DNA from: Pegea sp. RAD2-039 | Taxonomy: Eukaryota > Chordata > Thaliacea > Salpida > Salpidae | Direction of reading: 5' to 3' | Length of the DNA: 64,000 bases | Assembly (NCBI GenBank): GCA_034620365.1 | Contig: JAQGEQ010000072.1 | Span: 1 to 64,000, forward strand | Shown: in pieces, positions 1-45,125 of the stretch | Numbering within the stretch: the stretch's first letter is position 1 | Layout: every line of letters begins with the position of its first letter | The notes under the pieces: generated by a model | Database searches by the model: none | What the model saw: the letters and a program-made list of their open reading frames with translations, nothing else | What the model was told of the DNA's origin: nothing | Position numbers and translations under genes: made by a program

Positions 1-244
1 TAAGATATTTAAAATTTCAATTAAATAAAGTTTGATTTTACAAATAGCTGATTTGTTTAACTATTTCTAGGCATTGCATTTAAAAAATGAACTTTTAGTT
101 TCTACAAAATTAAAAATGAACTATCTAACGTTGCTTTGGTTTCTTTTCTATGACAAAAAACTTTGAAAAGTTTCTACAAATAATAAAAACAAAACTATTT
201 CAGCTATTTCAGCTAAACTATAAGTAATTTTTCGTAAAATACAG

Positions 245-3200
245 GGTACTTGGAAGTGATGAGATGCAAAGAAGGAGAATCATTCAGTCCTGAATATGAA
301 TGTTGTGTTGATTCTTGGAGAGTTCCAGGATGTGGGTGTGGATGTGATAATGGAAATATTTGTGAATCACCTTACGGTAACTGAGTTTATTTTTGTTAAG
401 AAATATTTCAAAATAATATTTGCTTTGAAAACCGTCAATTAGCAAAATCAGTTTAATTATTTTGTTGAATTATTTGAAGATGATGAATGTGTTGGATGCA
501 ATGGTGAACCAATTGACAAAGAACCATTTGACGAACCATCAGACTGTTGTACTTACTATCAATGTTGTAATGGTAAGTTGAAACAAGCAAATTAAATTGT
601 TGTTTAAATTTGTTACAAATAAGATTTCACAAAATGTTGTTATCATAAAAGACAAAAGTTGATGACAATTTTCAACTTTTAAGGAAAATTGTTGGAATTT
701 AAATGTCCAAATGGTCAAGCTTTTGATCCTGACTGTGGACACTGTGTACCTGACTACTTAGTACCAGGATGTGGATGCAATGGAGGATGCCATGCACCAC
801 CAGGTGAGCTTTTGTTCGAGTTTTCAAGATCAAAACAAGTTTTGATTGACTTATCGGATAGTTTTTCGAAAACGTTTTTTCGATTTCAATCAAAAAAGAT
901 AAAATAATTGAATCTTTGTAATTTCAGCTGATTAGATTTTAACCTTTTTGCTTTTCTATTAAGATGAATGCCACGATTCTAATGGAAAACCTTTGAGTAC
1001 TGGACCATTTGAGAAGCCAGGCGATTGTACCCATTTCTATCAATGTGGGGCAGGTTTGTTTGAACATTACAAAGTTAAATATAATGAATGAGAAAATTCA
1101 ATTAAATTTAGGAATTCTTTACACAAAGTCTTGCGCTCAAGGAACAGCTTTTAATCCAAAATTGGGAGTTTGTGATTGGCCATACAACGTACCTGGATGC
1201 TATGACCCAACACACTGTCGATCAAGTAATTACAATTAGTTCTATGATTCAGATATCTTATCAAACTGTTCAGCTTTCAAAAAGCTCGTTGTCGATTAGA
1301 ACTCGATACTTTTGTTTAGCTAATTAAACTTAAAGTTAATTTGAATTTTATCATTTAAATGTTTAATTCTTCAGTGTAAAAAGAGTTTTTTTAAAAGTAG
1401 TTCTTTGTTTCATTTTGTCTTAATGTTCTTTTTGAAAACTTGATAGGTGTATTTATCAGTTAGAAGAACTATCTAACTATTAACACTTCTAACATTAGCT
1501 ATCTACAATAGACTACTAAACAATTGATTGTATAAATGTCTGAATAACTTGCTTGTTGTTTTCTAGATCCAAAATGTGTAGAATCAGATGGCCGACCAAA
1601 AAGCACAGATCCATTTGAAGAACTTGGACAGTTTTTCCAATGTGGTGCTGGTGGGTTGAAAATGTTTTGAAGAAACTTTCATTGTATTTTAACAAACGAT
1701 TTCTATATTTTCAGGAGTTTTAAGCTCAGTTCCTAAATGTGGAGGAAATACTTGTGGTATGTTTCGTATAATTGATTATTTCTTAATTTCACTTGATAAT
1801 TTCTACAATTTTCAGACGGCCCATGCTGTGATAGATATGGTCAACCAATAAGTACAAAACCATTCCAAATACAAGGAGATTGTAATTGCTTCTATCAATG
1901 TTCATGTGGTTAGTAAAGCTTCTTTGATGTTTAAAAAAATGTTAAAAAGAATTCTATATAAAAGTAAATTTTCAAAAAGTATGAAATGATTAAACAGGAT
2001 GTATCAACAGGACATTTGAGAACAGAATGTTGCCCTGATGGCTTAACATTTAACCCTGAGACTGGTACATGTGACTTTGAATGGACTGTTCCAGGTTGTG
2101 GCTGTGGACCAATTGGTAAGTAGAAAGAAATGAGATTGTTTTATCAGATTTTAAACTGATTCCTTTATTAGATATCTGTCATGGATCTAACGGAGAACCA
2201 CTTTGTGGTGATCCATTCCCACTTGAGGACAATTGCACTCATTATCAGCAATGTATACAAGGTTACGTTTTGTTCACTAAATTTTTAGTGAAATGAAAAT
2301 TCTAGTAATAACTTATTGATATTTTGATTTTTAGGAGAATTAGTCATCAGAGAATGCAATCCTGACTTTGCTTTCAGCCCAGAACAAGGTCAATGTGTAC
2401 CAATGTGGGAAGTTCCTGGATGTTATCCTACCTGTGGAGGACATTGTGGATGCTACGGTTAATTACTTTTATTGTTTATTCTTTGTAATAATTGAATATT
2501 TCAAATTGAAATTACTTATTTCAGTTTTTAAGAAATATAATTTGATTACAAATTGTTGAAATTTTCAGATCCAGAATGTGTTGATGATTGTGGAAGACCT
2601 CTCAGCAACATCACTTTCCCTATTCCTGGAGATTGCAATGATTATCTTCAATGCTCATGCGGTGAGACATTTACCGAAAACATTTAAATTTATTTCTAGG
2701 AAATAATGAAATCATAATTTCTTTTGTTTTTGAAATATTAGTATTAAAATCATTTTGTTGTTTCCTCAGGTAAACTTCAACGAATGTCTTGTCAACCTGA
2801 TCATTCATATAATCCTGATACACATCAATGTGATCATTCTTATAACGTCTGTGGATGTTGCATTCCGACATGTGGTATAAATTCTTTTTACTTTTAAATA
2901 ACTTTTGTTTAATATCATCAAAATACACTTTTTAGCTGTTTTATTTACAAATTATCTTAATTATGACTAACTAAAATAAACCAATTGTGCATTTGAAACA
3001 GACCCTTGTCACACTGAATGTGGAAAACCAATTTCAACTGGCCCATTTCCTAAACCTGACAGCTGCTCGTATTATATCTGTACTTGTGGTAAATAATCTT
3101 TCTGTGACTAAATAAAGTTTTTTAAAAGTACAAAAATATTGATTTTCTAAAATGTCCAGGTGAATTGATTGAAAAAGAATGTCCAAAAGGTTATGCTTTC

Positions 3201-5751
3201 AATCCTGATACTCTGGTGTGTGTTCCTGCTCATTACGTTGAAGGATGTTATGATGACAGTTGTGATATACCATGTTATGGTTAGTTATTTTACTACCTGA
3301 ATTGAAGCGAACAAAATTATCAATTTTTACATTAGATCCAGAATGTCTTGATGACTGCGGTAATCCTATTCCATCTGGAAGATATACAATCAAAGGAAAT
3401 TGTAGCTTTTACATTGAATGTTGTGGAGGTAAATGAGATACATAAGCTTAAAATTTAAACGATTTTATAGAAAGTAATTATATTTATTTGTGAAATTTAC
3501 TGAAACATTATTTTTGCTTTGAAGGATATAAGAAAGTTGTGGAATGTGGAGATGGCTTAGCTTACAATCCAATTACAGCTTTATGTGATTTTGACTACAA
3601 TGTTGATGGTTGTTGTACACCAAGCTGTCCAGGACATTATGGTAAACATAGATTGAGTAACTACAAAAGTAGTTCAAATCAAATAAATTTGTTTTAAAGA
3701 TCCTTGCTGTGTCGATGAATGTGGTAGACCAATTAGTGGAGATCCACAAGCAATTCCTGGTGACTGTAAACATTTCAAAACATGCTGTGGAGGTTAATTG
3801 AAGCTCAAAGTTAATTTTGTTTTCAAAAATACTTATTTGCAGGAAAACTTATCATAAGTGAATGTGATGATGGTCTTGCATTCAATCCTGAAACAGGACA
3901 TTGTGATCATGCTTATAATGTCCCTGGTTGTTATGAATGTCCCCCACATTACGGTAAAATATTAATAAACTTTAATCGGAAATCTTCATCTTTTCAATCT
4001 TTTGCTAAATTCATGATGTGACTTTGTAGATCCTTGTTGTGTTGATGACTGTGGAAGACCAATCAGTAGAGGACCACAAGGAACTGGAGATTGCAAACAC
4101 TATACAATTTGCTGTGCTGGTAAACTAATAAATAATTCTATCATACAACTGAATATCTAAATCAATTTTTTGTTGACTTCTAGGAAAACTGATTACAGAG
4201 TCATGTCCTGAAGGACAAGCTTTTAATCCTGAAATTGGTCTTTGTGATGATCCATTTAATGTTCCTGGGTGTTATGTCACACCAAACCCTGGTTGCCGTC
4301 AGTAAACCTTTTAAAAAACTTAATATTTTCTTCAAAACCTTCAAACAAATAATTTACTTTTTAATTGTTCAGATATTGATTGTCAAGATGATTGTGGGCG
4401 ACCAATCAATTCAGGTCCTTTCCCTATTCCAAACAACTGCACGCATTTCTACCAATGTGCTTGTGGTGAGTAGGTTTTTGCACTAATACATTGATTTGCA
4501 ACTCCTGTATAAGATGAACATTGAGACACTTTGACAAATTAACATTTCTATTAATCAGGTGATTTGGTGGCTTTTCCTTGTCCAAACGGTCAAGCTTTTA
4601 ATCCTGATACAAATGAATGTCAATGTGCTTTTGAAGTTTGTGGTTGTGAATATGTTGGCAAAGAATGTAACCGTCAACCAGGTAAGCTCGAATTAACAGT
4701 TAACCGTTTAAAGTTTCAAAAACAATTTTAAATAAGTTAAATAATATTTAAAAAGATGTTGACTGTTATTTAAACAATTAAGCTGCTTTTTAACTTACAA
4801 TTAATTTCAGCTACAATTACAATCCTACAATTAGATATTCAAATATTCTTATACTTGTTGCATTCAAGTCAATTACAATAATATAAATATATACTAAATA
4901 AAACATTTATTTCAAGTACTTTATCAAAGCTGTTGTAACAATAAAAGTTAGTTACAAGGAGCTAAAATGTAGTAATAATCGTTGATATTTTTCCTGTTAA
5001 ACAATTACTTATTTCTTTACGTTTACTTTTCAGATGGACCATGCGTAGACAGAAATGGAAAACCAATAAGTACTGAACCATTTGAGAAACGAGGCGATTG
5101 TGAACATTTCTATCAATGTGGAGCAGGTATGCTTCATTTCTTCTTTCAATACTTTTGCCTGTAAATTTGATAATTTTATTGTATCAGGTATTTTGTATAC
5201 CATGTCATGTCCATCTGGTCTTGTGTTCAACCCAGTTTTGAAAAGTTGTGATTGGCCCTATAACGTTCCCGGATGTTGTACAAACACTCGTGCTGTTTAC
5301 TTCTTTGGTTAGTTGAAATAGTTTGATTACTTTGACAACGATCATTTATAACGACTTTATGTTGTAGATACAATGTGTGTTGATTCTACTGGTAGACCAA
5401 AGAGTACTGACCCAGTAAAAGTACCAAACAAATGTGATTCATTCCAACAGTGTGCTGCAGGTTAGTTGTTGTTTATCAAACTTTATAAAATTGCTTCTAG
5501 TTGTTGAAAGGGATGAATATTTAGTTTATCAATAATTTTAATTTCATACAGAACATTATTTAGTTGATTTTAATTTTCGAATTTAATGTTTTTTAACTGA
5601 TTTTTAAGTGAGATAAAAATATTCAAAGTTCAACCATTAAGTGAAAACTTTCAAAATTTCAGGAACTTTGTTTACACGAACTTGTCCTGAGGGAACATTA
5701 TTTGATTCTGATAAAGGATTTTGTGATTGGGAAGAAAATGTTGTTTGTTAA
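245..5751 (+). CDS. Multidomain CBM14 chitin-binding protein, left copy (5' end outside window)
   Basis: This is the 3' part of a secreted protein of tandem CBM14/peritrophin-A modules, identical in layout to the complete copy at 34755-45054. Exons: 245-376, 480-572, 684-803, 964-1053, 1112-1225, 1567-1650, 1715-1756, 1816-1908, 2011-2115, 2172-2261, 2335-2457, 2569-2661, 2770-2874, 3002-3088, 3160-3279, 3336-3428, 3525-3641, 3700-3792, 3843-3953, 4030-4119, 4184-4297, 4373-4465, 4559-4681, 5034-5126, 5188-5307, 5368-5460, 5663-5751. All junctions are GT-AG and phase 1. They encode the second half of module 8 and modules 9-21. Typical modules have six Cys with spacing C-x18-C-x5-C-x9-C-x12-C-x8-C and motifs such as [15 protein letters not shown] and [10 protein letters not shown]. 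Bases 1-244 are the intron after module 8's first half. At least two residues differ from the right copy (Thr/Pro in module 16, Ser/Arg in module 15). Confidence 0.9.
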
Positions 5752-5822
5752 CTGATTTTGCAATTTCTTACAAACTATTTCTAATCATTGATGACAAATA
5801 TTTTTCTTATAAATTGATTTCA

Positions 5823-5828
5823 AATAAA
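5823..5828 (+). other. Poly(A) signal of the left chitin-binding gene
   Basis: An AATAAA hexamer lies 72 bases past the stop codon. The same hexamer sits at the mirrored place behind the right-hand copy. Confidence 0.6.
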
Positions 5829-5976
5829 ATTAATTCTTGCATCTAAACTGAAAGTGTGTTTTATGTTAGACAGATTATCAAAAAGATTTGTTATCAGAAA
5901 GATTATAAAGAATTAAAGATTATTAAAAGAAATTTCTGATTTATTTTCAATTCTTTTGAAGTTAGATCAGATTGCA

Positions 5977-6037
5977 AATTCCGCAGCCTTGAGAAATATG
6001 TGTCTTGTACCTTCTTCATGATAAGCAAGACTAAATA
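5977..6037 (+). repeat. 61-bp direct repeat, outer copy, left arm
   Basis: The segment beginning AATTCCGCAGCCTTGAG and ending near TTCATGATAAGCAAG occurs again at 9228-9288 with only about two mismatches. The pair brackets 3.2 kb that includes the 13-bp minisatellite. Mirror copies are present in the right arm. No coding potential or known terminal repeat is recognised. Confidence 0.85.
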
Positions 6038-6148
6038 CCGGCAATAAAATTTTCCGATATCAGATCATTGAAGAACTCTTCATCTTTCAAGACATAAATC
6101 ACCAACAGATTTAATTGTTCAGAATTTGTTCAAGTTTATTATATTAGG

Positions 6149-6344
6149 TGACGTCATTAATCAGTTTGAAGTTCAACGGTTAGTGATGTAGAACGATTGA
6201 TCACATGATCTGCTTAGTAGCATTTATAGAAATAATCAGATGATGATAAGACGAGTGAAGAAAGATTTGATGATTTGAAAGTTGAAACAGATTCCACGTT
6301 AGAAGCTTCTTCATCTCGTCTTGATTATGACGTAAGTGACGTCA
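6149..6344. promoter_or_regulatory. Cluster of CRE-like palindromes TGACGTCA, left arm
   Basis: Perfect TGACGTCA palindromes lie at 6149-6156 and 6337-6344. Variant TGACGTAA sites are at 6328-6335 and 7038-7045. TGACGTCA is the consensus for CREB/ATF-type bZIP dimers. In DNA this AT-rich, two perfect 8-mers within 200 bp are unlikely by chance. Both perfect sites are intact in the right arm. No adjacent gene start is recognised, so whether they act as an enhancer is inference. Confidence 0.4.
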
Positions 6345-7440
6345 TCACCATCGACATCTTTAAAGCTCGAAACAAACTCTCAAATATTTTAAAACAAAAA
6401 TTTAATCAAAAAGGTTTGTTGTTGAAAAGATTATAGAAAAAGTAATTTAGTGCTGATTACTGAAAGTTATTTGTAAATTTTATCAAATAACTTTTGAGTT
6501 GAGTAGTTGTGATGAATTTAAATAATAAAATAGAAGATTACAAATTCAGAAGTTGAAAGAAGCTTTTGACGAAGTTAGTTTGTTGTCAGCTTTTCTTGTA
6601 ATCTAAAGTGATGTTGTTCAGTTTTTTGTGTTTAATTGTTAATATGATAAAAGAAATAAATAAATTTGTAAAAATCTTAAATAGATTTTGTGTGAGATTC
6701 AGTAAAATCTGATTTAATCTCTTAATTTCAGTTAACTCAATTTGAAACTCTTAATATTGTTGAAGAATCACAAAACTGATTTCTATCATTTCACAAGAAA
6801 ATAGTTCAGTTGTTGGCAGCGAGATGATTATTTTGCTTGTTGTCATCATCTCAATTATTTATCCACATTTCATTTTAGTGAAAATGATTTTAGTAGAATC
6901 AGGTTTATACTTTTAGATCATGAACACTTGTATCAAGTGATGATGTCAGTAGCTTTAGTTGTTTGTAAATACAAGTTCATCAAATTGTAGTTTAACAGAT
7001 CAAAAGATCTTGATACAGAACTTGGAGTATTTGCCGCTGACGTAAATATGTTTTTGTTCTATTTATACCTTCCCAATATCGTATAGACTTTTATCATTTG
7101 GTAATAGGAATTGTGAGAGATAGCGATTATCGTTAGTATATTTATCGCTGTTTCAGCCACCTTGTTAATTTCAATAAAGCTTTATGTAGTCATCATCAGT
7201 ACGATTTATTCCAATTTATTTCTTGGCTGAATTGTTGATAGTTGGTTTGGTGTTATTGGAACTTAGTGAAGTTAAAACTTAGAAACGATGAAGATACTTT
7301 CTATTTGCTAGACTTTGATTTGAAGAAGATTTGATAGGAATTTATATTAGCTTTTTTACTGAGACAATGGCTGAAAGACAACTTTTACCAAATTACAGGG
7401 AAGAGTGTGGGAAGAGTTTTTGTGGAAAATTATCACATGC
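6345..7440. other. Gene-free stretch between chitin-binding gene and minisatellite (left)
   Basis: AT-rich DNA with no supported gene. It has a mirror copy in the right arm with scattered substitutions. An ATG frame at 7367-7462 runs straight into the minisatellite and looks fortuitous. Confidence 0.6.
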
Positions 7441-9220
7441 CCCACGTGAATATCCCAGGTAACTGTCCCACGTAAATATCCCAGGTAACTGTCCCAGATC
7501 ATTGTCCCAGGTCACTGTCCAAGGTCACTATCCCAGTTAACTATTCCAGGTCACTAACCAAGGTTGTCCCCAGGTAATTGTCCCAGGTGATTATCCCAGG
7601 TCACTGTCCCAGGTCATTGTCCCTGGTCACTATCTCAGGTAATTCCCAAAGTCACTATCTCTGGTCACTTTCCAAGGTAACTGTCCCAGGTCACTGTCCC
7701 AGGTAATTCCCAAAGTCACTATCTCTGGTCACTTTCCAAGGTAACTGTCCCAGGTCACTGTCCCAGATCATTGTCCCAGGTCACTGTCCCAGGTAATTCC
7801 CAAAGTCACTATCTCTGGTCACTTTCCAAGGTCACTGTCCCAGATCATTGTCCCTGGTAACTGCCCCAGGTCACTGTCCCTGGTAACTGCCCAATGTCAC
7901 TATCCCTGGTCACTTTCCAAGGTAACTGTCCCAGGTCACTGCCCCAGGTCACTGTCCCTGGTAACTGCACAAGGTCACTATCCCTGGTCACTTTCCAAGG
8001 TCACTGTCCCAGGTCACTGTCCCAGATCACTGTCCCAGGTCACTGTCCCAGGTCACTGTCCCAGGTCACTGTCCCAGGTCACTGTCCCAGGTCACTGTCC
8101 CAGGTCACTGTCCCAGGTTACTGTCTCAGGTAATTCCCAAAGTCACTATCTCTGGTCACTTTCCAAGGTCACTGTCCCAGATCATTGTCCCTGGTAACTG
8201 CCCCAGGTCACTGTCCCTGGTAACTGCCCAATGTCACTATCCCTGGTCACTTTCCAAGGTAACTGTCCCAGGTCACTGCCCCAGGTCACTGTCCCTGGTA
8301 ACTGCACAAGGTCACTATCCCTGGTCACTTTCCAAGGTCACTGTCCCAGGTCACTGTCCCAGATCACTGTCCCAGGTCACTGTCCCAGGTCACTGTCCCA
8401 GGTCACTGTCCCAGGTCACTGTCCCAGGTTACTGTCCCAGGTAATTCCCAAAGTCACTATCTCTGGTCACTTTCCAAGGTCACTGTCCCAGGTCACTGTC
8501 CCAGATCATTGTCCCTGGTAACTGCCCAAAGTCACTATCCCTGGTCACTTTCCAAGGTAACTGTCCCAGATCATTGTCCCAGGTCACTGTCCCAGGTAAT
8601 TCCCAAAGTCACTATCTCTGGTCACTTTCCAAGGTCACTGTCCCAGGTCACTGTCCCAGATTATTGTCCCTGGTAACTGCCCAAATTCACTATCCCTGGT
8701 CACTTTCCAAGGTCACTGTCCCAGGTAACTGTCCCAGGTAACTGTCCCAGGTCACTGTCCCAGGTGATTATCCCAGGTAATTCCCAAAGTCACTATCTCT
8801 GGTCACTTTCCAAGGTAAATGTCCCAGGTCACTGTCCCAGGTCACTGTCCCTGGTAACTGCACAAGGTCACTATCCCTGGTCACTTTCCAAGGTCACTGT
8901 CCCAGGTCACTGTCCCAGATCACTGTCCCAGGTCACTGTCCCAGGTCACTGTCCCAGGTCACTGTCCCAGATCATTGTCCCTGGTAACTGCCCAAAGTCA
9001 CTATCCCTGGTCACTTTCCAAGGTAACTGTCCCAGGTAACTGTCCCAGGTCACTGTCCCAGGTCACTATCCCAGGTAATTCCCAAAGTCACTATCTCTGG
9101 TCACTTTCCAAGGTAACTGTCCCAGGTCACTGTCCCAGATCATTGTCCCTGGTAACTGCCCAAAGTCACTATCCCTGGTCAGATCCAAGGTAAGTGTCCC
9201 AGGTAACTGTCCCAGATCAC
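7441..9220 (+). repeat. Minisatellite of about 13-bp unit, left copy
   Basis: Tandem units of the type CAGGTCACTGTCC (13 bp), with variants carrying GGTAACTGTCC and GATCATTGTCC. They are interspersed with a recurrent longer block (CCCAAAGTCACTATCTCTGG and its variants), giving higher-order repeats of one to two hundred bases. The array is about 1.78 kb, against about 1.38 kb in the right arm. Because 13 is not a multiple of three, open frames with a 13-residue period arise in it; these are a by-product of the repeat, not protein evidence. Confidence 0.95.
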
Positions 9221-9227
9221 TGAGGTC

Positions 9228-9288
9228 AATTCCGCAGCCTTGAGAAATATGTGTCTTGTACCTTCTTCATGATAGGCAAGATTAAATA
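9228..9288 (+). repeat. 61-bp direct repeat, inner copy, left arm
   Basis: Second copy of the sequence at 5977-6037, placed directly at the inner end of the 13-bp minisatellite. It has the same orientation as the first copy. Confidence 0.85.
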
Positions 9289-9981
9289 GTTCCATCAACA
9301 CAAATATAATTTAAGTGGTTACTAAAACAACTGAAAAATAGATCAAGCAATCTTTTGTTTATAAAAATTTGGTATCAGAATCATTAATAGTTTAGATGCT
9401 AATTAAATACTTTATTATTTTAATCGTGATTTTCGAAAATGATTTGTTTAGTTTTTTTGTAATGACTCTTAGAAATATTGTTGAAAAATTGACATGTAAA
9501 AAGGACTTTTCAGGAATCGTTTTCTGTTTTACGTTTATTGGTTGGTTTGTTTGTTACATAAACTTATTTGACGATTAAAGTGACATAATTTTTACAAACT
9601 GTTAAAACCGACAGCAGATATCAGATGTTGATTACGAATCAACATTTTCTGTTTTATCTTGTGTAAGCAACATTATTAGAAGATGAAACTTCAGTAATCA
9701 TCATATGCACGGTTTGTTTATAACCAATCTACAGAAGTATTGTAAAGTTGGCTTAAATCAAAAGTAATATATCCAGATGCATCTAAAAGTTCTCAATTTA
9801 CATCTAGCGTGGACAAACGATTTCTTTTTTATCAACTTTAATTATTAATAACTAAAAAATACTCAAAAAGATGTTCTACATTTGATTTATATCTTAACTT
9901 TATCATGTTTAAAAGCATAACAAGTTTCTCAACTGAATTCTTAACATAGAATCTAGTAAAGAAGGTGATGAGTTCTAAAAT
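9289..9981. other. Non-coding stretch between the two minisatellites (left)
   Basis: About 0.7 kb of AT-rich DNA, mirrored at 30925-31617. A 60-codon frame (9396-9578) is unchanged in both arms, but it shows no recognisable domain and the whole stretch is equally conserved. I do not call it a gene. Confidence 0.6.
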
Positions 9982-12316
9982 TCTGATTCAACATGCGACT
10001 GCTGAGTTAAAACAATTCGAGTCTGATTCAACATGCAACTGCTGAGTTAAAACAACTCGAGTCTGATTCAACATGCAACTGTGGAGTTAAAAGAACTCGA
10101 GTCTGATTCCACATGCAACTGCCGAGTTAAAACAACTCGAGTCTGATTCAACATGCAACTGCTCAGTTAAAACAACTCGAGTCTGATTCAACATGCAACT
10201 GCTGAGTTAAAACAATTCGAGTCTGATTCAACATGCAACTGCCGAGTTAAAACAACTCGAGTCTGATTCAACATGCAACTGCTGAGTTAAAACAACTCGA
10301 GTCTGATTCAACATGCAACTGCTGAGTTAAAACAACTCGAGTCTGATTCAACATGCAACTGTTGAGTTATAACAACTCGAGTCTGATTCAACATGCAACT
10401 GGTGAGTTATAACAACTCGAGTCTGATTCAACATGCAACTGTTGAGTTAAAACAACTCGACTCTGATTCAACATGCAACTGCTGAGTTAAAACAACTCGA
10501 GTCTGATTCCACATGCAACTGCTGAGTTAAAACAACTCGAGTCTGATTCAACATGCAACTGCTGAGTTAAAACAACTCGAGTCTGATTCAACATGCAACT
10601 GCTGAGTTAAAACAACTCGAGTCTGATTCCACATGCAACTGCTGAGTTATAACTACTAGAGTCTGATTCAACATGCGACTGCTGAGTTATAACAACTCGA
10701 GTCTGATTCAACATGCAACTGTTGAGTTATAACAATTCGAGTCTGATTCAACATGCAACTGTTGAGTTATAACAATTCGAGTCTGATTCAACATGCGACT
10801 GCTGAGTTAAAACAATTCGAGTCTGATTCAACATGCGACTGCTGAGTTAAAACAACTCGAGTCTGATTCAACATGCAACTGCTGAGTTAAAACAACTCGA
10901 GTCTAATTCAACATGCAACTGCCGAGTTAAAACAACTCGAGTCTGATTTAACATGCAACTGCTGAGTTAAAACAACTCGAGTCTGATTTAACATGCAACT
11001 GCTGAGTTAAAACAACTCGAGTCTGATTCAACATGCAACTGTTGAGTTATAACAATTCGAGTCTGATTCAACATGCAACTGCTGAGTTAAAACAACTCGA
11101 GTCTGATTCAACATGCAACTGTTGAGTTATAACAATTCGAGTCTGATTCAACATGCGACTGCTGAGTTAAAACAATTCGAGTCTGATTCAACATGCGACT
11201 GCTGAGTTATAACAACTCGAGTCTGATTCAACATGCGACTGCCGAGTTATAACAACTCGAGTCTGATTCAACATGCAACTGTTGAGTTATAACAACTCGA
11301 GTCTGATTCAACATGCAACTGTTGAGTTATAACAACTCGAGTCTGATTCAACATGCAACTGTTGAGTTAAAACAACTCGACTCTGATTCAACATGCAACT
11401 GCTGAGTTAAAACAACTCGAGTCTGATTCCACATGCAACTGCTGAGTTAAAACAACTCGAGTCTGATTCAACATGCAACTGCTGAGTTAAAACAACTCGA
11501 GTCTGATTCAACATGCAACTGCTGAGTTAAAACAACTCGAGTCTGATTCCACATGCAACTGCTGAGTTATAACTACTAGAGTCTGATTCAACATGCGACT
11601 GCTGAGTTATAACAACTCGAGTCTGATTCAACATGCAACTGTTGAGTTATAACAATTCGAGTCTGATTCAACATGCAACTGTTGAGTTATAACAATTCGA
11701 GTCTGATTCAACATGCGACTGCTGAGTTAAAACAATTCGAGTCTGATTCAACATGCGACTGCTGAGTTAAAACAACTCGAGTCTGATTCAACATGCAACT
11801 GCTGAGTTAAAACAACTCGAGTCTAATTCAACATGCAACTGCCGAGTTAAAACAACTCGAGTCTGATTTAACATGCAACTGCTGAGTTAAAACAACTCGA
11901 GTCTGATTTAACATGCAACTGCTGAGTTAAAACAACTCGAGTCTGATTCAACATGCAACTGTTGAGTTATAACAATTCGAGTCTGATTCAACATGCAACT
12001 GCTGAGTTAAAACAACTCGAGTCTGATTCAACATGCAACTGCTGAGCTATAACAACTCGAGTCTGATTCAACATGCAACTGCTGAGTTAAAACAACTCGA
12101 GTCTAATTCAACATGCAACTGCCGAGTTATAACAACTCGAGTCTGATTCAACATGCAACTGTTGAGTTAAAACAACTCGAGTCTGATTCAACATGCAACT
12201 GTTGAGTTATAACAATTCGAGTCTGATTCAACATGCAACTGCTGAGTTATAACAACTCGAGTCTGATTCCACATGCAACTGCTGAGTTATAACAACTCGA
12301 GTCTGATTCAACATGC
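9982..12316 (+). repeat. 40-bp minisatellite, left copy, at the inner edge of the inverted repeat
   Basis: About 58 tandem copies of a 40-bp unit containing GTCTGATTCAACATGCAACT followed by GCTGAGTTAAAACAACTCGA. A higher-order duplication is visible: private variants at 10461, 10651 and 10901 recur at 11381, 11571 and 11821, exactly 920 bp (23 units) apart. Downstream of 12316 the sequence changes at once to unique DNA before Maelstrom, so the array marks the edge of the inverted repeat. Confidence 0.97.
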
Positions 12317-29117: not shown

Positions 29118-29257
29118 CTCATTTTACTTTATTTCATTTGAATTCATATTTTCGCATGAAATTGTATTTCAGAATTTTATGTTTTTACTTTCTGTATCTT
29201 TATAAAAGTTAAACGAAAATTTGATTATTTAATTAATGGAAGAAATAAGTTGAAGCT

Positions 29258-30924
29258 GTTTTAACTCAACAGTCGCATATTGAATCAGACTCGAATTGTT
29301 ATAACTCAGCAGTTGCATGTTGAATCAGACTCGAGTTGTTATAACTCAACAGTTGCATGTTGAATCAGACTCGAATTGTTATAACTCAACAGTTGCATGT
29401 TGAATCAGACTCGAGTTGTTTTAACTCAACAGTTGCATGTTGAATCAGACTCGAGTTGTTATAACTCAGCAGTTGCATGTTGAATCAGACTCGAGTTGTT
29501 ATAACTCAACAGTTGCATGTTGAATCAGACTCGAGTTGTTATAACTCAACAGTTGCATGTTGAATCAGACTCGAGTTGTTATAGCTCAGCAGTTGCATGT
29601 TGAATCAGACTCGAGTTGTTTTAACTCAGCAGTTGCATGTTGAATCAGACTCGAGTTGTTTTAACTCAGCAGTTGCATGTTGAATCAGACTCGAATTGTT
29701 TTAACTCAGCAGTTGCATGTGGAATCAGACTCGAGTTGTTTTAACTCAACAGTTGCATGTTGAATCAGACTCGAATTGTTTTAACTCAGCAGTTGCATGT
29801 TGAATCAGACTCGAGTTGTTTTAACTCCACAGTTGCATGTGGAATCAGACTCGAGTTGTTTTAACTCAACAGTTGCATGTTGAATCAGACTCGAGTTGTT
29901 TTAACTCAGCAGTTGCATGTTGAATCAGACTCGAGTTGTTATAACTCAGCAGTTGCATGTTGAATCAGACTCGAGTTGTTTTAACTCAGCAGTTGCATGT
30001 TGAATCAGACTCGAGTTGTTTTAACTCAGCAGTTGCATGTTGAATCAGACTCGAGTTGTTTTAACTCAGCAGTTGCATGTTGAATCAGACTCGAGTTGTT
30101 TTAACTCAGCAGTTGCATGTTGAATTCGAGTTGTTTTAACTCAGCAGTTGCATGTTGAATCAGACTCGAATTGTTTTAACTCAGCAGTTGCATGTGGAAT
30201 CAGACTCGAGTTGTTTTAACTCAACAGTTGCATGTTGAATCAGACTCGAATTGTTTTAACTCAGCAGTTGCATGTTGAATCAGACTCGAGTTGTTTTAAC
30301 TCCACAGTTGCATGTGGAATCAGACTCGAGTTGTTTTAACTCAACAGTTGCATGTTGAATCAGACTCGAGTTGTTTTAACTCAGCAGTTGCATGTTGAAT
30401 CAGACTCGAGTTGTTATAACTCAGCAGTTGCATGTTGAATCAGACTCGAGTTGTTTTAACTCAGCAGTTGCATGTTGAATCAGACTCGAGTTGTTTTAAC
30501 TCAGCAGTTGCATGTTGAATCAGACTCGAGTTGTTTTAACTCAGCAGTTGCATGTGGAATCAGACTCGAGTTATTTTAACTCAACAGTTGCATGTTGAAT
30601 CAGACTCGAATTGTTTTAACTCAGCAGTTGCATGTTGAATCAGACTCGAGTTGTTTTAACTCAGCAGTTGCATGTTGAATCAGACTCGAGTTGTTTTAAC
30701 TCAGCAGTTGCATGTTGAATCAGACTCGAGTTGTTTTAACTCAGCAGTTGCATGTTGAATCAGACTCGAGTTGTTTTAACTCGGCAGTTGCATGTTGAAT
30801 CAGACTCGAATTGTTTTAACTCAGCAGTTGCATGTTGAATCAGACTCGAGTTGTTTTAACTCGGCAGTTGCATGTTGAATCAGACTCGAATTGTTTTAAC
30901 TCAGCAGTCGCATGTTGAATCAGA
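29258..30924 (-). repeat. 40-bp minisatellite, right copy
   Basis: Reverse complement of the 9982-12316 family, about 42 units. It starts 140 bp after the DCTN6 stop, with no sequence shared by the left arm before it, so it marks the other inner edge of the inverted repeat. A duplication of about 475 bp (12 units less 5 bases) shows as repeated private variants at 29826 and 30301. This higher-order pattern differs from the 920-bp one on the left, so the two arrays have turned over independently. A shortened unit lies at about 30120-30135. Confidence 0.97.
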
Positions 30925-31617
30925 ATTTTAGAACTCATCACCTTCTTTACTAGATTCTATGTTTAGAATTCAGTTGAGAAACTTGTTATGCTTTTAAACA
31001 TGATAAAGTTAAGATATAAATCAAATGTAGAACATCTTTTTGAGTATTTTGTAGTTATTAATAATTAAAGTTGATAAAAAAGAAATCGTTTGTCCACGCT
31101 AGATGTAAATTGAGAACTTTTAGATGCATCTGGATATATTACTTTTGATTTAAGCCAACTTTACAATACTTCTGTAGATTGGTTATAAACAAACCGTGCA
31201 TATGATGATTACTGAAGTTTCATCTTCTAATAATGTTGCTTACACAAGATAAAACAGAAAATGTTGATTCGTAATCAACATCTGATATCTGCTGTCGGTT
31301 TTAACAGTTTGTAAAAATTATGTCACTTTAATCGTCAAATAAGTTTATGTAACAAACAAACCAACCAATAAACGTAAAACAGAAAACGATTCCTGAAAAG
31401 TCCTTTTTACATGTCAATTTTTCAACAATATTTCTAAGAGTCATTACAAAAAAACTAAACAAATCATTTTCGAAAATCACGATTAAAATAATAAAGTATT
31501 TAATTAGCATCTAAACTATTAATGATTCTGATACCAAATTTTTATAAACAAAAGATTGCTTGATCTATTTTTCAGTTGTTTTAGTAACCACTTAAATTAT
31601 ATTTGTGTTGATGGAAC
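30925..31617. other. Non-coding stretch between the two minisatellites (right)
   Basis: Mirror of 9289-9981, with the same 60-codon frame on the minus strand (31328-31510). No gene is supported. Confidence 0.6.
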
Positions 31618-31678
31618 TATTTAATCTTGCCTATCATGAAGAAGGTACAAGACACATATTTCTCAAGGCTGCGGAATT
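31618..31678 (-). repeat. 61-bp direct repeat, inner copy, right arm
   Basis: Mirror of 9228-9288, lying at the inner end of the 13-bp minisatellite. Confidence 0.85.
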
Positions 31679-31684
31679 GACCTC

Positions 31685-33065
31685 AGTGACCTGGGACAGT
31701 TACCTGGGACACTTACCTTGGATCTGACCAGGGATAGTGACTTTGGGCAGTTACCAGGGACAATGATCTGGGACAGTGACCTGGGACAGTTACCTTGGAA
31801 AGTGACCAGAGATAGTGACTTTGGGAATTACCTGGGATAGTGACCTGGGACAGTGACCTGGGACAGTTACCTGGGACAGTTACCTTGGAAAGTGACCAGG
31901 GATAGTGACTTTGGGCAGTTACCAGGGACAATGATCTGGGACAGTGACCTGGGACAGTGACCTGGGACAGTGACCTGGGACAGTGATCTGGGACAGTGAC
32001 CTGGGACAGTGACCTTGGAAAGTGACCAGGGATAGTGACCTTGTGCAGTTACCAGGGACAGTGACCTGGGACAGTGACCTGGGACATTTACCTTGGAAAG
32101 TGACCAGAGATAGTGACTTTGGGAATTACCTGGGATAATCACCTGGGACAGTGACCTGGGACAGTTACCTGGGACAGTGACCTGGGACAGTTACCTGGGA
32201 CAGTGACCTTGGAAAGTGACCAGGGATAGTGAATTTGGGCAGTTACCAGGGACAATAATCTGGGACAGTGACCTGGGACAGTGACCTTGGAAAGTGACCA
32301 GAGATAGTGACTTTGGGAATTACCTGGGACAGTGACCTGGGACAATGATCTGGGACAGTTACCTTGGAAAGTGACCAGGGATAGTGACTTTGGGCAGTTA
32401 CCAGGGACAATGATCTGGGACAGTGACCTGGGACAGTGACCTGGGACAGTGACCTTGGAAAGTGACCAGAGATAGTGACTTTGGGAATTACCTGGGATAG
32501 TAACCTGGGACAGTGACCTGGGACAGTGACCTGGGACAGTGACCTGGGACAGTGACCTGGGACAGTGATCTGGGACAGTGACCTGGGACAGTGACCTTGG
32601 AAAGTGACCAGGGATAGTGACCTTGTGCAGTTACCAGGGACAGTGACCTGGGACAGTTACCTTGGAAAGTGACCAGGGATAGTGACATTGGGCAGTTACC
32701 AGGGACAGTGACCTGGGGCAGTTACCAGGGACAATGATCTGGGACAGTGACCTTGGAAAGTGACCAGAGATAGTGACTTTGGGAATTACCTGGGACAGTG
32801 ACCTGGGACAGTGACCTGGGACAGTTACCTTGGAAAGTGACCAGAGATAGTGACTTTGGGAATTACCTGAGATAGTGACCAGGGACAATGACCTGGGACA
32901 GTGACCTGGGATAATCACCTGGGACAATTACCTGGGGACAACCTTGGTTAGTGACCTGGGATAGTTAACTGGGATAGTGACCTTGGACAGTGACCTGGGA
33001 CAATGATCTGGGACAGTTACCTGGGATATTTACGTGGGACAGTTACCTGGGATATTCACGTAGGG
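31685..33065 (-). repeat. Minisatellite of about 13-bp unit, right copy
   Basis: Reverse complement of the family at 7441-9220 (units such as GGACAGTGACCTG). It is about 0.4 kb shorter than the left copy. The flanks match the left arm on both sides, so the length change lies within the array. Confidence 0.95.
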
Positions 33066-34161
33066 CATGTGATAATTTTCCACAAAAACTCTTCCCACAC
33101 TCTTCCCTGTAATTTGGTAAAAGTTGTCTTCCAGCCATTGTCTCAGTAAAAAAGCTAATATAAATTCCTATCAAATCTTCTTCAAATCAAAGTATAGCAA
33201 ATAGAAAGTATCTTCATCGTTTCTAAGTTTTAACTTCACTAATTTCCAATAACACCAAACCAACTGTCAACAATTCAGCCAAGAAATAAATTGGAATAAA
33301 TCGTACTGATGATGACTACATAAAGCTTTATTGAAATTAACAAGGTGGCTGAAACAGCGATAAATATACTAACGATAATCGCTATCTCTCACAATTCCTA
33401 TTACCAAATGATAAAAGTCTATACGATATTGGGAAGGTATAAATAGAACAAAAACATATTTACGTCAGCAGCAAATACTCCAAGTTCTGTATCAAGATCT
33501 TTTGATCTGTTAAACTACAATTTGATGAACTTGTATTTACAAACAACTAAAGCTACTGACATCATCACTTGATACAAGTGTTCATGATCTAAAAGTATAA
33601 ACCTGATTCTACTAAAATCATTTTCACTAAAATGAAATGTGGATAAATAATTGAGATGATGACAACAAGCAAAATAATCATCTCGCTGCCAACAACTGAA
33701 CTATTTTCTTGTGAAATGATAGAAATCAGTTTTGTGATTCTTCAACAATATTAAGAGTTTCAAATTGAGTTAACTGAAATTAAGAGATTAAATCAGATTT
33801 TACTGAATCTCACACAAAATCTATTTAAGATTTTTACAAATTTATTTATTTCTTTTATCATATTAACAATTAAACACAAAAAACTGAACAACATCACTTT
33901 AGATTACAAGAAAAGCTGACAACAAACTAACTTCGTCAAAAGCTTCTTTCAACTTCTGAATTTGTAATCTTCTATTTTAATATTTAAATTCATCACAACT
34001 ACTCAACTCAAAAGTTATTTGATAAAATTTACAAATAACTTTCAGTAATCAACACTAAATTACCTTTTTCTATAATCTTTTCAACAACAAACCTTTTTGA
34101 TTAAATTTTTGTTTTAAAATATTTGAGAGTTTGTTTCGAGCTTTAAAGATGTCGATGGTGA
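33066..34161. other. Gene-free stretch, right arm
   Basis: Mirror of 6345-7440 with scattered base differences. No gene recognised. Confidence 0.6.
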
Positions 34162-34357
34162 TGACGTCACTTACGTCATAATAAAGACGAGATGAAGAAG
34201 CTTCTAACATGGAATCTGTTTCAACTTTCAAATCATCAAATCATTCTTCACTCGTCTTATCATCATCTGATTATTTCTATAAATGCTACTAAGCAGATCA
34301 TGTGATCAATCGTTCTACATCACTAACCGTTGAACTTCAAACTGATTAATGACGTCA
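34162..34357. promoter_or_regulatory. CRE-like palindrome pair, right arm
   Basis: TGACGTCA at 34162-34169 and 34350-34357, both preserved from the left arm while nearby bases have changed (for example G to T just beside the first site). Function not shown. Confidence 0.4.
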
Positions 34358-34468
34358 CCTAATATAATAAACTTGAACAAATTCTGAACAATTAAATCTG
34401 TTGGTGATTTATGTCTTGAAAGATGAAGAGTTCTTCAATGATCTGATATCGGAAAATTTTATTGCCGG

Positions 34469-34529
34469 TATTTAGTCTTGCTTATCATGAAGAAGGTACA
34501 AGACACATATTTCTCAAGGCTGCGGAATT
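34469..34529 (-). repeat. 61-bp direct repeat, outer copy, right arm
   Basis: Mirror of 5977-6037. Confidence 0.85.
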
Positions 34530-34677
34530 TGCAATCTGATCTAACTTCAAAAGAATTGAAAATAAATCAGAAATTTCTTTTAATAATCTTTAATTCTTTA
34601 TAATCTTTCTGATAACAAATCTTTTTGATAATCTGTCTAACATAAAACACACTTTCAGTTTAGATGCAAGAATTAAT

Positions 34678-34683
34678 TTTATT
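34678..34683 (-). other. Poly(A) signal of the complete chitin-binding gene
   Basis: AATAAA on the minus strand, 72 bases past the stop codon. Confidence 0.6.
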
Positions 34684-34754
34684 TGAAATCAATTTATAAG
34701 AAAAATATTTGTCATCAATGATTAGAAATAGTTTGTAAGAAATTGCAAAATCAG

Positions 34755-37700
34755 TTAACAAACAACATTTTCTTCCCAATCACAAAATCCTTTATCAGAA
34801 TCAAATAATGTTCCCTCAGGACAAGTTCGTGTAAACAAAGTTCCTGAAATTTTGAAAGTTTTCACTTAATGGTTGAACTTTGAATATTTTTATCTCACTT
34901 AAAAATCAGTTAAAAAACATTAAATTCGAAAATTAAAATCAACTAAATAATGTTCTGTATGAAATTAAAATTATTGATAAACTAAATATTCATCCCTTTC
35001 AACAACTAGAAGCAATTTTATAAAGTTTGATAAACAACAACTAACCTGCAGCACACTGTTGGAATGAATCACATTTGTTTGGTACTTTTACTGGGTCAGT
35101 ACTCTTTGGTCTACCAGTAGAATCAACACACATTGTATCTACAACATAAAGTCGTTATAAATGATCGTTGTCAAAGTAATCAAACTATTTCAACTAACCA
35201 AAGAAGTAAACAGCACGAGTGTTTGTACAACATCCGGGAACGTTATAGGGCCAATCACAACTTTTCAAAACTGGGTTGAACACAAGACCAGATGGACATG
35301 ACATGGTATACAAAATACCTGATACAATAAAATTATCAAATTTACAGGCAAAAGTATTGAAAGAAGAAATGAAGCATACCTGCTCCACATTGATAGAAAT
35401 GTTCACAATCGCCTCGTTTCTCAAATGGTTCAGTACTTATTGGTTTTCCATTTCTGTCTACGCATGGTCCATCTGAAAAGTAAACGTAAAGAAATAAGTA
35501 ATTGTTTAACAGGAAAAATATCAACGATTATTACTACATTTTAGCTCCTTGTAACTAACTTTTATTGTTACAACAGCTTTGATAAAGTACTTGAAATAAA
35601 TGTTTTATTTAGTATATATTTATATTATTGTAATTGACTTGAATGCAACAAGTATAAGAATATTTGAATATCTAATTGTAGGATTGTAATTGTAGCTGAA
35701 ATTAATTGTAAGTTAAAAAGCAGCTTAATTGTTTAAATAACAGTCAACATCTTTTTAAATATTATTTAACTTATTTAAAATTGTTTTTGAAACTTTAAAC
35801 GGTTAACTGTTAATTCGAGCTTACCTGGTTGACGGTTACATTCTTTGCCAACATATTCACAACCACAAACTTCAAAAGCACATTGACATTCATTTGTATC
35901 AGGATTAAAAGCTTGACCGTTTGGACAAGGAAAAGCCACCAAATCACCTGATTAATAGAAATGTTAATTTGTCAAAGTGTCTCAATGTTCATCTTATACA
36001 GGAGTTGCAAATCAATGTATTAGTGCAAAAACCTACTCACCACAAGCACATTGGTAGAAATGCGTGCAGTTGTTTGGAATAGGGAAAGGACCTGAATTGA
36101 TTGGTCGCCCACAATCATCTTGACAATCAATATCTGAACAATTAAAAAGTAAATTATTTGTTTGAAGGTTTTGAAGAAAATATTAAGTTTTTTAAAAGGT
36201 TTACTGACGGCAACCAGGGTTTGGTGTGACATAACACCCAGGAACATTAAATGGATCATCACAAAGACCAATTTCAGGATTAAAAGCTTGTCCTTCAGGA
36301 CATGACTCTGTAATCAGTTTTCCTAGAAGTCAACAAAAAATTGATTTAGATATTCAGTTGTATGATAGAATTATTTATTAGTTTACCAGCACAGCAAATT
36401 GTATAGTGTTTGCAATCTCCAGTTCCTTGTGGTCCTCTACTGATTGGTCTTCCACAGTCATCAACACAACAAGGATCTACAAAGTCACATCATGAATTTA
36501 GCAAAAGATTGAAAAGATGAAGATTTCCGATTAAAGTTTATTAATATTTTACCGTAATGTGGGGGACATTCATAACAACCAGGGACATTATAAGCATGAT
36601 CACAATGTCCTGTTTCAGGATTGAATGCAAGACCATCATCACATTCACTTATGATAAGTTTTCCTGCAAATAAGTATTTTTGAAAACAAAATTAACTTTG
36701 AGCTTCAATTAACCTCCACAGCATGTTTTGAAATGTTTACAGTCACCAGGAATTGCTTGTGGATCTCCACTAATTGGTCTACCACATTCATCGACACAGC
36801 AAGGATCTTTAAAACAAATTTATTTGGTTATGAAATACTTTTGTAGTTACTCAATCTATGTTTACCATAATGTCCTGGACAGCTTGGTGTACAACAACCA
36901 TCAACATTGTAGTCAAAATCACATAAAGCTGTAATTGGATTGTAAGCTAAGCCATCTCCACATTCCACAACTTTCTTATATCCTTCAAAGCAAAAATAAT
37001 GTTTTAGTAAATTTCACAAATAAATACAATTAATTTTGATAAAATCGTTTAAATTTTAAGCTTATGTATATCATGTTACCTCCACAACATTCAATGTAAA
37101 AGCTACAATTTCCTTTGATTGGATATCTTCCAGATGGAATAGGATTACCGCAGTCATCAAGACATTCTGGATCTAATGTAAAAATTGATAATTTTGTTCG
37201 CTTCAATTCAGGTAGTAAAATAACTAACCATAACATGGTATATCACAACGGTCATCATAACATCCTTCAACGTAATGAGCAGGAACACACACCAGAGTAT
37301 CAGGATTGAAAGCATAACCTTTTGGACATTCTTTTTCAATCAATTCACCTGGACATTTTAGAAAATCAATATTTTTGTACTTTTAAAAAACTTTATTGAG
37401 TCACAGAAAGATTATTTACCACAAGTACAGATATAATACGAGCAGCTGTCAGGTTTAGGAAATGGGCCAGTTGAAATTGGTTTTCCACATTCAGTGTGAC
37501 AAGGGTCTGTTTCAAATGCACAATTGGTTTATTTTAGTTAGTCATAATTAAGATAATTTGTAAATAAAACAGCTAAAAAGTGTATTTTGATGACATTAAA
37601 CAAAGGTTATTTAAAAGTAAAAAGAATTTATACCACATGTCGGAATGCAACATCCACAGACGTTATAAGAATGATCACATTGATGTGTATCAGGATTATA

Positions 37701-40700
37701 TGAATGATCAGGTTGACAAGACATTCGTTGAAGTTTACCTGAGGAAACAATTTCGATTTTAATACTAATATTTCAAAAACAAAAGAAGTTATGATTTCAT
37801 TATTTCCTAGAAATAAATTTAAATGTTTTCGGTAAATGTCTCACCGCATGAGCATTGAAGATAATCATTGCAATCTCCAGGAATAGGGAAAGTGATGTTG
37901 CTGAGAGGTCTTCCACAATCATCAACACATTCTGGATCTGAAAATTTCAACAATTTGTAATCAAATTATATTTCTTAAAAACTGAAATGGGTAATTTCAA
38001 TTTGAAATATTCAATTATTACAAAGAATAAACAATAAAAGTAATTAACCGTAGCATCCACAATGTCCTCCACAGGTAGGATAACATCCAGGAACTTCCCA
38101 CATTGGTACACATTGACCTTGTTCTGGGCTGAAAGCAAAGTCAGGATTGCATTCTCTGATGACTAATTCTCCTAAAAATCAAAATATCAATAAGTTATTA
38201 CTAGAATTTTCATTTCACTAAAAATTTAGTGAACAAAACGTAACCTTGTATACATTGCTGATAATGAGTGCAATTGTCCTCAAGTGGGAATGGATCACCA
38301 CAAAGTGGTTCTCCGTTAGATCCATGACAGATATCTAATAAAGGAATCAGTTTAAAATCTGATAAAACAATCTCATTTCTTTCTACTTACCAATTGGTCC
38401 ACAGCCACAACCTGGAACAGTCCATTCAAAGTCACATGTACCAGTCTCAGGGTTAAATGTTAAGCCATCAGGGCAACATTCTGTTCTCAAATGTCCTGTT
38501 GATACATCCTGTTTAATCATTTCATACTTTTTGAAAATTTACTTTTATATAGAATTCTTTTTAACATTTTTTTAAACATCAAAGAAGCTTTACTAACCAC
38601 ATGAACATTGATAGAAGCAATTACAATCTCCTTGTATTTGGAATGGTTTTGTACTTATTGGTTGACCATATCTATCACAGCATGGGCCGTCTGAAAATTG
38701 TAGAAATTATCAAGTGAAATTAAGAAATAATCAATTATACGAAACATACCACAAGTATTTCCTCCACATTTAGGAACTGAGCTTAAAACTCCTGAAAATA
38801 TTGAAATTGTTTGTTAAAATTCAATGAAAGTTTCTTCAAAACATTTTCAACCCACCAGCACCACATTGGAAAAACTGTCCAAGTTCTTCAAATGGATCTG
38901 TGCTTTTTGGTCGGCCATCTGATTCTACACATTTTGGATCTAGAAAACAACAAGCAAGTTATTCAGACATTTATACAATCAATTGTTTAGTAGTCTATTG
39001 TAGATAGCTAATGTTAGAAGTGTTAATAATTAGATAGTTCTTCTAACTGATCAATACACCTATCAAGTTTTCAAAAAGAACATTAAGACAAAATGAAACA
39101 AAGAACTACTTTTAAAAAAACTCTTTTTACACTGAAGAATTAAACATTTAAATGATAAAATTCAAATTAACTTTAAGTTTAATTAGCTAAACAAAAGTAT
39201 CGAGTTCTAATCGACAACGAGCTTTTTGAAAGCTGAACAGTTTGATAAGATATCTGAATCATAGAACTAATTGTAATTACTTGATCGACAGTGTGTTGGG
39301 TCATAGCATCCAGGTACGTTGTATGGCCAATCACAAACTCCCAATTTTGGATTAAAAGCTGTTCCTTGAGCGCAAGACTTTGTGTAAAGAATTCCTAAAT
39401 TTAATTGAATTTTCTCATTCATAATCTTTAACTTTGTAATGTTCAAACAAACCTGCCCCACATTGATAGAAATGGGTACAATCGCCTGGCTTCTCAAATG
39501 GTCCAGTACTCAAAGGTTTTCCATTAGAATCGTGGCATTCATCTTAATAGAAAAGCAAAAAGGTTAAAATCTAATCAGCTGAAAATACAAAGATTCAATT
39601 ATTTTATCTTTTTTGATTGAAATCGAAATAACGTTTTCGAAAAATTATCCGAAAAGTCAAACAAAACTTGTTTTGATCTTGAAAACTCGCACAAAAGCTC
39701 ACCTGGTGGTGCATGGCATCCTCCATTGCATCCACATCCTGGTACTAAGTAGTCAGGTACACAGTGTCCACAGTCAGGATCAAAAGCTTGACCATTTGGA
39801 CATTTAAATTCCAACAATTTTCCTTAAAAGTTGAAAATTGTCATCAACTTTTGTCTTTTATGATAACAACATTTTGTGAAATCTTATTTGTAACAAATTT
39901 AAACAACAATTTAATTTGCTTGTTTCAACTTACCATTACAACATTGATAGTAAGTACAACAGTCTGATGGTTCGTCAAATGGTTCTTTGTCAATTGGTTC
40001 ACCATTGCATCCAACACATTCATCATCTTCAAATAATTCAACAAAATAATTAAACTGATTTTGCTAATTGACGGTTTTCAAAGCAAATATTATTTTGAAA
40101 TATTTCTTAACAAAAATAAACTCAGTTACCGTAAGGTGATTCACAAATATTTCCATTATCACATCCACACCCACATCCTGGAACTCTCCAAGAATCAACA
40201 CAACATTCATATTCAGGACTGAATGATTCTCCTTCTTTGCATCTCATCACTTCCAAGTACCCTGTATTTTACGAAAAATTACTTATAGTTTAGCTGAAAT
40301 AGTTTTGTTTTAATTATTTGTAGAAACTTTTCAAAGTTTTTTGTCATAGCAAAGAAACCAAAGCAACGTTAGATAGTTCATTTTTAATTTTGTAGAAACT
40401 AAAAGTTCATTTTTTAAATGCAATGCTTAGAAATAGTTAAACAAATCAGCTATTTGTAAAATCAAACTTTATTTAATTGAAGTTTTAAATATCTTACAAT
40501 TCATAAAAAGCTTTTACTGAATAGAAATCTGATTTTTAAAAGTAGTTATCTGACCATTAACACATTGGTAGTACAAGTTGCAATCTCCAGGCTTTTCAAA
40601 AGGTCCTTCACAAGTTGGGTTTCCATAGCAGTCTACACATTCTGGATCTTGTATAACAACAGTTTAGATTTGAATTTTCACTTTATAAAATCATCTCAAT

Positions 40701-45054: not shown

Positions 45055-45125
45055 TTTTAAATCTTACCAGAACACTATCAAGTAATTCTAATACGATTAG
45101 TGAAGATAGTGATACTGGTATGGTG

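Follow-up and report, generated by a model that had tools for sequence, protein, structure and literature searches.

A probable recent inverted segmental duplication in a cluster of chitin-binding genes on contig C123

Described systems and the C123 locus

Clustered, near-identical gene blocks are known from the Sp185/333 cluster of the purple sea urchin, where tandem simple repeats bound the segmental duplications and have been proposed to promote duplication and conversion (PMC3091723). The locus described here, which lies in the first 64 kb (the whole stretch of DNA that we analysed, hereafter the window) of the gap-free, 210,768-bp contig C123, resembles that cluster in its near-identical gene blocks. 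The sea urchin blocks, as far as that account describes them, are tandem, ~4.5 kb long and bounded by microsatellites (PMC3091723), whereas the blocks here are larger and inverted, belong to another gene family, and have minisatellites only along their inner side. A second likeness is to the amphioxus VCBP cluster, which also holds genes with chitin-binding domains in a region described as having abundant inverted repeats, which differ between haplotypes, and much variation in copy number; unlike VCBPs, which carry immunoglobulin V domains (PMC2632668), the five arm ORFs that were searched here contained none. The human Y palindrome P6 shares the plan of inverted arms, an unduplicated spacer and arm-to-arm gene conversion, and its minimum conversion tracts are reported, by inference, to average 2,068 bp with a maximum of 9,023 bp (PMC3723533), sizes to which a 2.6-kb run at our locus is comparable. 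However, P6 arms are given as >99.9% alike and >100 kb long (PMC3723533), compared with 99.35% by substitutions over 7.4 kb here. Inverted duplications have further been described as arising from double-strand breaks (PMC10622511).

The sequence-only reading of the window had also drawn an analogy to bdelloid rotifers, which found no support. Flot et al. 2013 reportedly described palindromes in the first Adineta vaga draft. The bdelloid telomere motif is TGTGGG; (TGTGGG)4 had no exact match in this genome, and (TTAGGG)4 was found at the ends of four contigs (C108, C125, C139, and C342), an indirect test that speaks against a bdelloid host. Those first-draft palindromes do resemble our locus in that a single contig carried collinear blocks in inverted orientation, and their assembly is open to the same doubt (PMC7953838, PMC7749112); for the later A. 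vaga assembly (L1) a single palindrome is reported, and for A. ricciae none (PMC7749112).

In our reading, with a probability of roughly 0.68, the inverted segmental duplication is real and recent and belongs to a cluster of chitin-binding (peritrophin-A type) genes that is undergoing local amplification. The assembly contains five near-identical copies of the repeated unit in both orientations, of which A–D lie on C123 and E on C147. As the chitin-binding exon block thus occurs several times in what seems to be an animal genome, here as near-alike facing copies, a fairly ordinary recent gene-family duplication, not an exotic palindrome, is most likely. No account of this locus was found among the matches listed in literature on inverted or segmental duplication, minisatellites, and chitin-binding families. 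If real, the duplication would be a clear case of a gene family that grows through inverted copies whose inner edges carry minisatellites.

Arms, spacer, and gene content

Self-BLAST of the window paired 1–8925 with 40496–31684 on the minus strand at 96.95% identity over 8931 columns, including a 13-bp minisatellite array, and beyond this match 40-bp arrays extend the pairing to 12316 and 29257. With arrays masked, identity was 99.17% between 1–7452 and 40496–33053 (7455 columns) and 99.74% between 9223–9981 and 31683–30925 (a 759-bp piece with 2 differences), while MAFFT alignment of arm A with arm B gave 48 substitutions over 7441 aligned sites (0.65%) and five gaps of 1–9 bp each. This similarity is far beyond chance, and it bears out the earlier claim of two opposite arms that match over genes, introns, and intergenic DNA: aligned with the reverse complement of 29257–40496, 1–12316 is an inverted copy with arrays of different length. 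Long, high-identity arms in opposite orientation therefore enclose unduplicated DNA, the arrangement of an inverted segmental duplication with a spacer.

Arm A (1..12316, plus strand) consists of the gene unit (1–7452), a 13-bp minisatellite (7453..9222; 1,770 bp), the 759-bp piece (9223–9981), and, at its inner edge, a 40-bp minisatellite of 58.4 units (9982..12316). The mirroring part of arm B (29257..40496, minus strand) carries the corresponding 13-bp array at 31684..33052 (1,369 bp) and, again at the inner edge, the 40-bp array at 29257..30924 (41.8 units). The arms as first delimited hold as an inverted pair but not in their extent: comparison with copy C showed that the unit in B runs past 40496, with interruptions, to 50064. 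This outer continuation (40497..50064, minus strand) is common to copy C and partly to D and E; A lacks it, as C123 itself begins with the first base of the window and arm A is truncated there.

The spacer (12317..29256; 16,940 bp) is not duplicated; each of two probes taken from it had a single match in the assembly. A 62-bp minisatellite of 103.5 units (21834..28216) takes up 6,383 bp, so that only about 10.6 kb of the spacer lies outside the array, and one spacer exon (20135..20584, plus strand) matched the Ydr279_N domain (RNase H2 subunit B) with 36.1 bits against a cut-off of 25.2.

Ten ORFs, nine from arm A or the spacer and one further out, were searched against Pfam. CBM_14 (chitin-binding Peritrophin-A) exons span 683..5748 on the plus strand of arm A, where five ORFs scored above the Pfam cut-off and a genome search gave six matches (1111–5748); genome-search matches also place minus-strand CBM_14 exons in arm B and in the stretch that continues it outward (34758..44127). 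These exons scarcely differ between copies of the unit, and the exon constraint is gauged from few changes. Extra gene copies for a chitin-binding protein would be a likely consequence of the duplication. As a test for an arthropod host, Chitin_bind_4 had no match in this genome or in any of 14 control genomes, a result of little discriminating power.

Minisatellites and probable gene conversion

The inner edges of arms A and B both coincide with ends of minisatellite arrays (2/2), and all four copies whose inner side is present have a 13-bp array next to it, directly adjoining (0 bp) in A and B and separated by 24 bp in E and by about 430 bp in C. The array coverage of C123 is 10.6%. Where the B/C unit ends on its outer side (50064), no array was seen; thus, arrays mark inner edges only. 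The 40-bp arrays of A and B differ in the order of variant units, in their end point within the unit, and in their internal duplications, and as they are far more divergent than their flanks, fast array turnover is needed. Mechanistically, breaks or replication slips in minisatellite arrays may start the copying of a block, which repair would place inverted at a nearby site (break-induced or template-switch copying), and the arms would then exchange sequence by gene conversion, leaving the 2.6-kb stretch free of differences. A broader version of this scheme, possible but doubtful, is an ongoing, two-orientation amplification of chitin-binding gene blocks at several loci (C123/C147, C189, perhaps C100) that uses minisatellites, chiefly those of the dispersed 13-bp family, as its working breakpoints and in which conversion between inverted arms maintains the likeness of the copies.

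The difference-free stretch between A and B covers 2,583 sites (3680..6262, plus strand), a length reached in 0 of 20,000 permutations. Across these columns, copy C is separated from A, and likewise from B, by 27 differences, and copy E by 35. For the other pairs, the same test gave uncorrected values of 0.34 (A–C), 0.39 (B–C), 0.33 (C–E), 0.034 (A–E), 0.023 (B–E), and 0.020 (C–D). Identical tracts between the arms therefore exceed what uniform divergence would produce, as expected of a palindrome maintained by conversion. Judged from the sequence, the run is probably a gene-conversion tract, and it could also be an artefact of polishing or consensus calling. Where the sequence-only reading had offered recent duplication or ongoing gene conversion, the 0.65% divergence speaks for the former and this run makes gene conversion probable as well.

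The copy family and rival explanations

The pair in the window is part of a larger set. Further copies lie at C123:183799–200408, at C123:201231–210768, and at the end of C147, 98–99.5% alike, and the same repeat is found at either end of C123 and at the right-hand ends of C147 and C189. The two-arm inverted duplication first proposed is real in sequence, but it belongs to a copy family that occurs in both orientations and includes both contig ends; before a palindrome found in a single window is likened to bdelloid or Y-chromosome cases, the ends of its contig and the other members of its repeat family should be taken into account.

Best placed among the alternatives, though unlikely, is an assembly mis-join, in which one true copy stands beside the spacer and a second (the other haplotype's allele or a paralogue) was attached via the minisatellite, after which the contig ended. 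Arm A is indeed terminal, the join would fall at its 2.3-kb array, the repeat at the ends of C123, C147, and C189 points to a tangled graph there, and 0.65% is within the size of ordinary heterozygosity. However, the spacer is bordered on each side by the 759-bp piece and 40-bp array, for which A and B gave the only matches (in a search that skips simple repeats), and a third probe, from the outer flank of B, had one full-length match, which argues that the assembly holds no second haplotype of this flank. The joining of two haplotypes, already raised from the sequence, thus keeps some probability but is weakened by three probes with one full-length match each, although single matches for all three are also expected from a purged assembly.

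Very unlikely is the reading of the unit as a large mobile element inserted twice in opposite orientation. Dispersed relatives of the stretch 7026–7411 do occur on several other contigs (~69–77% alike, with one 76-bp piece at 91%), and C123:83000–83866 contains a 0.6–0.9 kb piece of the inner end of the unit; yet the inner extent is unequal, as the 759-bp piece and 40-bp array are common to A and B and absent from C and E, and the 10 ORFs searched against Pfam, a search that was not exhaustive, included no transposase. Least credible of all is a fold-back artefact at the level of reads or amplification, in which a strand is read back on itself, as would suit the inverted geometry at both contig ends: the spacer should then have been mirrored first and is unmirrored, and between the arms there are 48 substitutions over 7441 sites as well as differences in both arrays, with unlike internal duplications in the 40-bp arrays, so that B was not simply read twice, and the earlier argument from an unduplicated spacer and unequal arrays (58.4 vs 41.8 units) against a simple fold-back is upheld. 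A scaffolding error across a gap was rejected, as C123 consists entirely of A, C, G, and T and its arms and spacer therefore contain no scaffolding gap.

For the inverted segmental duplication that we favor, the other copies supply a comparison. Informative sites group A with B (27 vs 5 and 2) and D with E (12 vs 5 and 2), so that a plain fold-back of C does not account for D, which forms a second inverted pair with C; D and E may be one and the same copy. C and D are the closest pair overall (0.51% divergence, with 0.62% for D–E), a closeness that leans towards a fold-back of C. A and D each lie at an end of C123, a position in which assembly errors are common. Contig C197 was considered as a continuation of arm A and dropped, being 93–96% alike in pieces with a different arrangement. 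More distant relatives of the unit are found on C189 (about 92%) and C258 (82%).

Inverted arms and further copies of the unit

BLAST self-comparison recovered arm A (window 1-12316) and arm B (29257-40496) as copies in inverted orientation, which bears out the inverted duplication proposed in the sequence-only reading. Outside the arrays, the aligned arms differ by 48 substitutions over 7441 sites and by five gaps of 1-9 bp each, and the 759-bp piece between the 13-bp and 40-bp arrays differs at 2 sites; BLAST identity, which takes in the 13-bp array, is lower (96.95%). Within the 105.7-Mb assembly of 387 contigs, the window is G000:C123:1-64000, and this contig (C123; 210,768 bp) begins within arm A.

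Searched against the whole genome, window 1-3000 has 99% copies at C123:37508-40496, C123:188219-191209, and C147:125574-128564 (a second contig), a 99% copy of query part 1-2638 at C123:208140-210768, 91% copies at two sites on contig C189, an 82% copy on contig C258, and many short matches. When C123 was compared with itself, four copies of the repeated unit were found: A, B (29257-50064), C (183799-200408, or from 183520 if a fragment is counted), and D (201231-210768, truncated by the contig end), while a fifth copy, E, forms the end of C147. C and D, ~3.2 kb apart, are likewise an inverted pair (99.48% over 9,004 columns). On C189, a 20.37-kb unit is present twice in direct orientation within 98859-128858, with its second copy truncated by the contig end; the two are 99.93% alike over their 9,630 shared bp, reflecting either a tandem duplication or an assembly that circled a repeat. 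A detached 0.6-0.9 kb fragment of the unit's inner end (~97-98% identical) was also seen at C123:83000-83866.

Genomic duplication or assembly artefact

Copies A and D are both terminal in C123, as might be expected if the arms had arisen in assembly rather than in the genome. However, C123 contains only A, C, G, and T and is free of gaps, the spacer (12317-29256) is not mirrored, the arrays of A and B differ (these last two points having been raised against a fold-back from the sequence alone), and more copies exist with other flanks; for these reasons, the inverted duplication is most likely real. Probes 14000-14600, 12400-15400, and 50200-53200 each had one full-length match in the assembly (the last also four short matches of 68-83 bp), and thus no second haplotype was seen, although a purged assembly would look alike.

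Overall, the arms are probably the product of a recent segmental duplication, in inverted orientation, inside a growing cluster of chitin-binding genes; this is a known kind of feature, to which the Sp185/333 and VCBP clusters come closest. The earlier comparison with bdelloid palindromes found no support: (TGTGGG)4 has no exact match in the genome, which speaks against a bdelloid host. TTAGGG at the ends of four contigs (C108, C125, C139, and C342), together with the spliced CBM_14 genes and an RNase H2B-like exon, is consistent with an animal. Palindromes of the first Adineta vaga draft are mostly unmatched in later Adineta assemblies, with one palindrome in lineage L1 and none reported for A. 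ricciae (PMC7749112), and Jaron et al. put the number at 19 for A. vaga and 0 for three other bdelloids, cautioning that palindromes may be mis-assembly (PMC7953838).

Relations among copies and possible gene conversion

Over the unit, substitutions were 0.65% for A-B, 1.14% for B-C, 1.19% for A-C, 1.22% for C-E, 1.32% for A-E, and 1.33% for B-E, and 27 sites group A+B against C+E (the alternative groupings have 5 and 2). Over the stretch common to B, C, D, and E, values were 0.51% (C-D), 0.62% (D-E), 0.82% (C-E), 0.93% (B-C), 1.00% (B-D), and 1.40% (B-E); here, 12 sites group D+E against B+C (5 and 2 for the others), yet C and D are the least diverged pair, owing to 23 sites private to E. The directions in which D and E run would allow the right-hand ends of C123 and (reversed) C147 to overlap by 6.2 kb with 99.35% identity, and the two contigs may join at this point. 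D and E could represent a single copy, a pair of alleles, or two separate copies.

The longest substitution-free A/B run (window 3680-6262; 2,583 sites) was equalled in 0 of 20,000 permutations. Compared with C and E, each of the two arms shows 27 and 35 differences, respectively, in these columns, and therefore the region is not slow-changing. Uncorrected values of this permutation test for other pairs were 0.34 (A-C), 0.39 (B-C), 0.33 (C-E), 0.034 (A-E), 0.023 (B-E), and 0.020 (C-D; run of 1,689 bp). A single conversion tract between the arms would produce the identical run; a consensus artefact would explain it too.

Gene content, edges, and minisatellites

Five ORFs of arm A score above the Pfam cut-off for CBM_14 (chitin-binding, peritrophin-A type). 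In 489 sites from five CBM_14 stretches, three of which fall within the identical run, A and B show 0 differences, and A differs from C and from E at 2 sites each. Relative to the C189 copy (overall divergence 6.05%), pN was 0.016 (6 changes) and pS 0.048 (5 changes), small numbers that would fit constrained, working exons. Stretch 4168-4272 has an identical in-frame TGA near its start in the five copies compared, which we take as the end of an intron. Genome-wide, at least 119 CBM_14 matches were listed at E ≤ 0.001 (150 of 260 candidates scored), and among those listed, C123, C147, C189, C258, and contig C100 account for 108 of the 119. On C100, many matches with identical scores occur on both strands at ~180-380 kb, suggesting that CBM_14 genes there form a further set, with copies in direct and inverted orientation.

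In the spacer, ORF 20135-20584 exceeds the Pfam cut-off for Ydr279_N (RNase H2 subunit B), and two ORFs fall slightly under theirs: 21514-21711 (Hexapep, 26.7 against 27 bits), resembling dynactin subunit 6, and 15662-15886 (HMG_box_2, 20.6 against 22.4). Minus-strand ORF 17141-17398 has no Pfam match; on visual inspection it looks like a decayed reverse transcriptase. Adjoining the RNase H2B-like exons is a minisatellite of 62-bp units (21834-28216; 6,383 bp, 103.5 units). Outside the spacer, window 58654-58995 holds a protein kinase exon (Pkinase, 38.6 bits), which resembles STK11/LKB1.

Both arms stop at the end of their own 40-bp array, at different positions within the 40-bp unit. Array A has an internal block of ~17 units duplicated, and array B a shorter, dissimilar internal duplication; unit types number 24 in A and 16 in B, with 10 common. 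The 13-bp array on the unit's inner side lies 0 bp away in A and B, 24 bp in E, and ~430 bp in C. A probe holding the 13-bp array start (window 6500-7700; 40 of 106 candidates scored) had at least 151 matches in the genome, and among the matches listed, the 13-bp part reaches at least 15 contigs besides C123 and C147. Arrays of at least 150 bp make up 10.6% of C123, and none lies at the unit's outer edge in B and C. Two smaller inverted pairs were also observed: one on C189 (114097-116062 and 116348-118315; arms of ~1.97 kb, 98.4%, 285 bp apart) sits within the 20.37-kb tandem unit, and one on C123 beyond the window (152083-153917 and 164287-166121; 1,835 columns, 98.5%) has its second arm stopping 5 bp short of a 4.3-kb array with 19-bp units.
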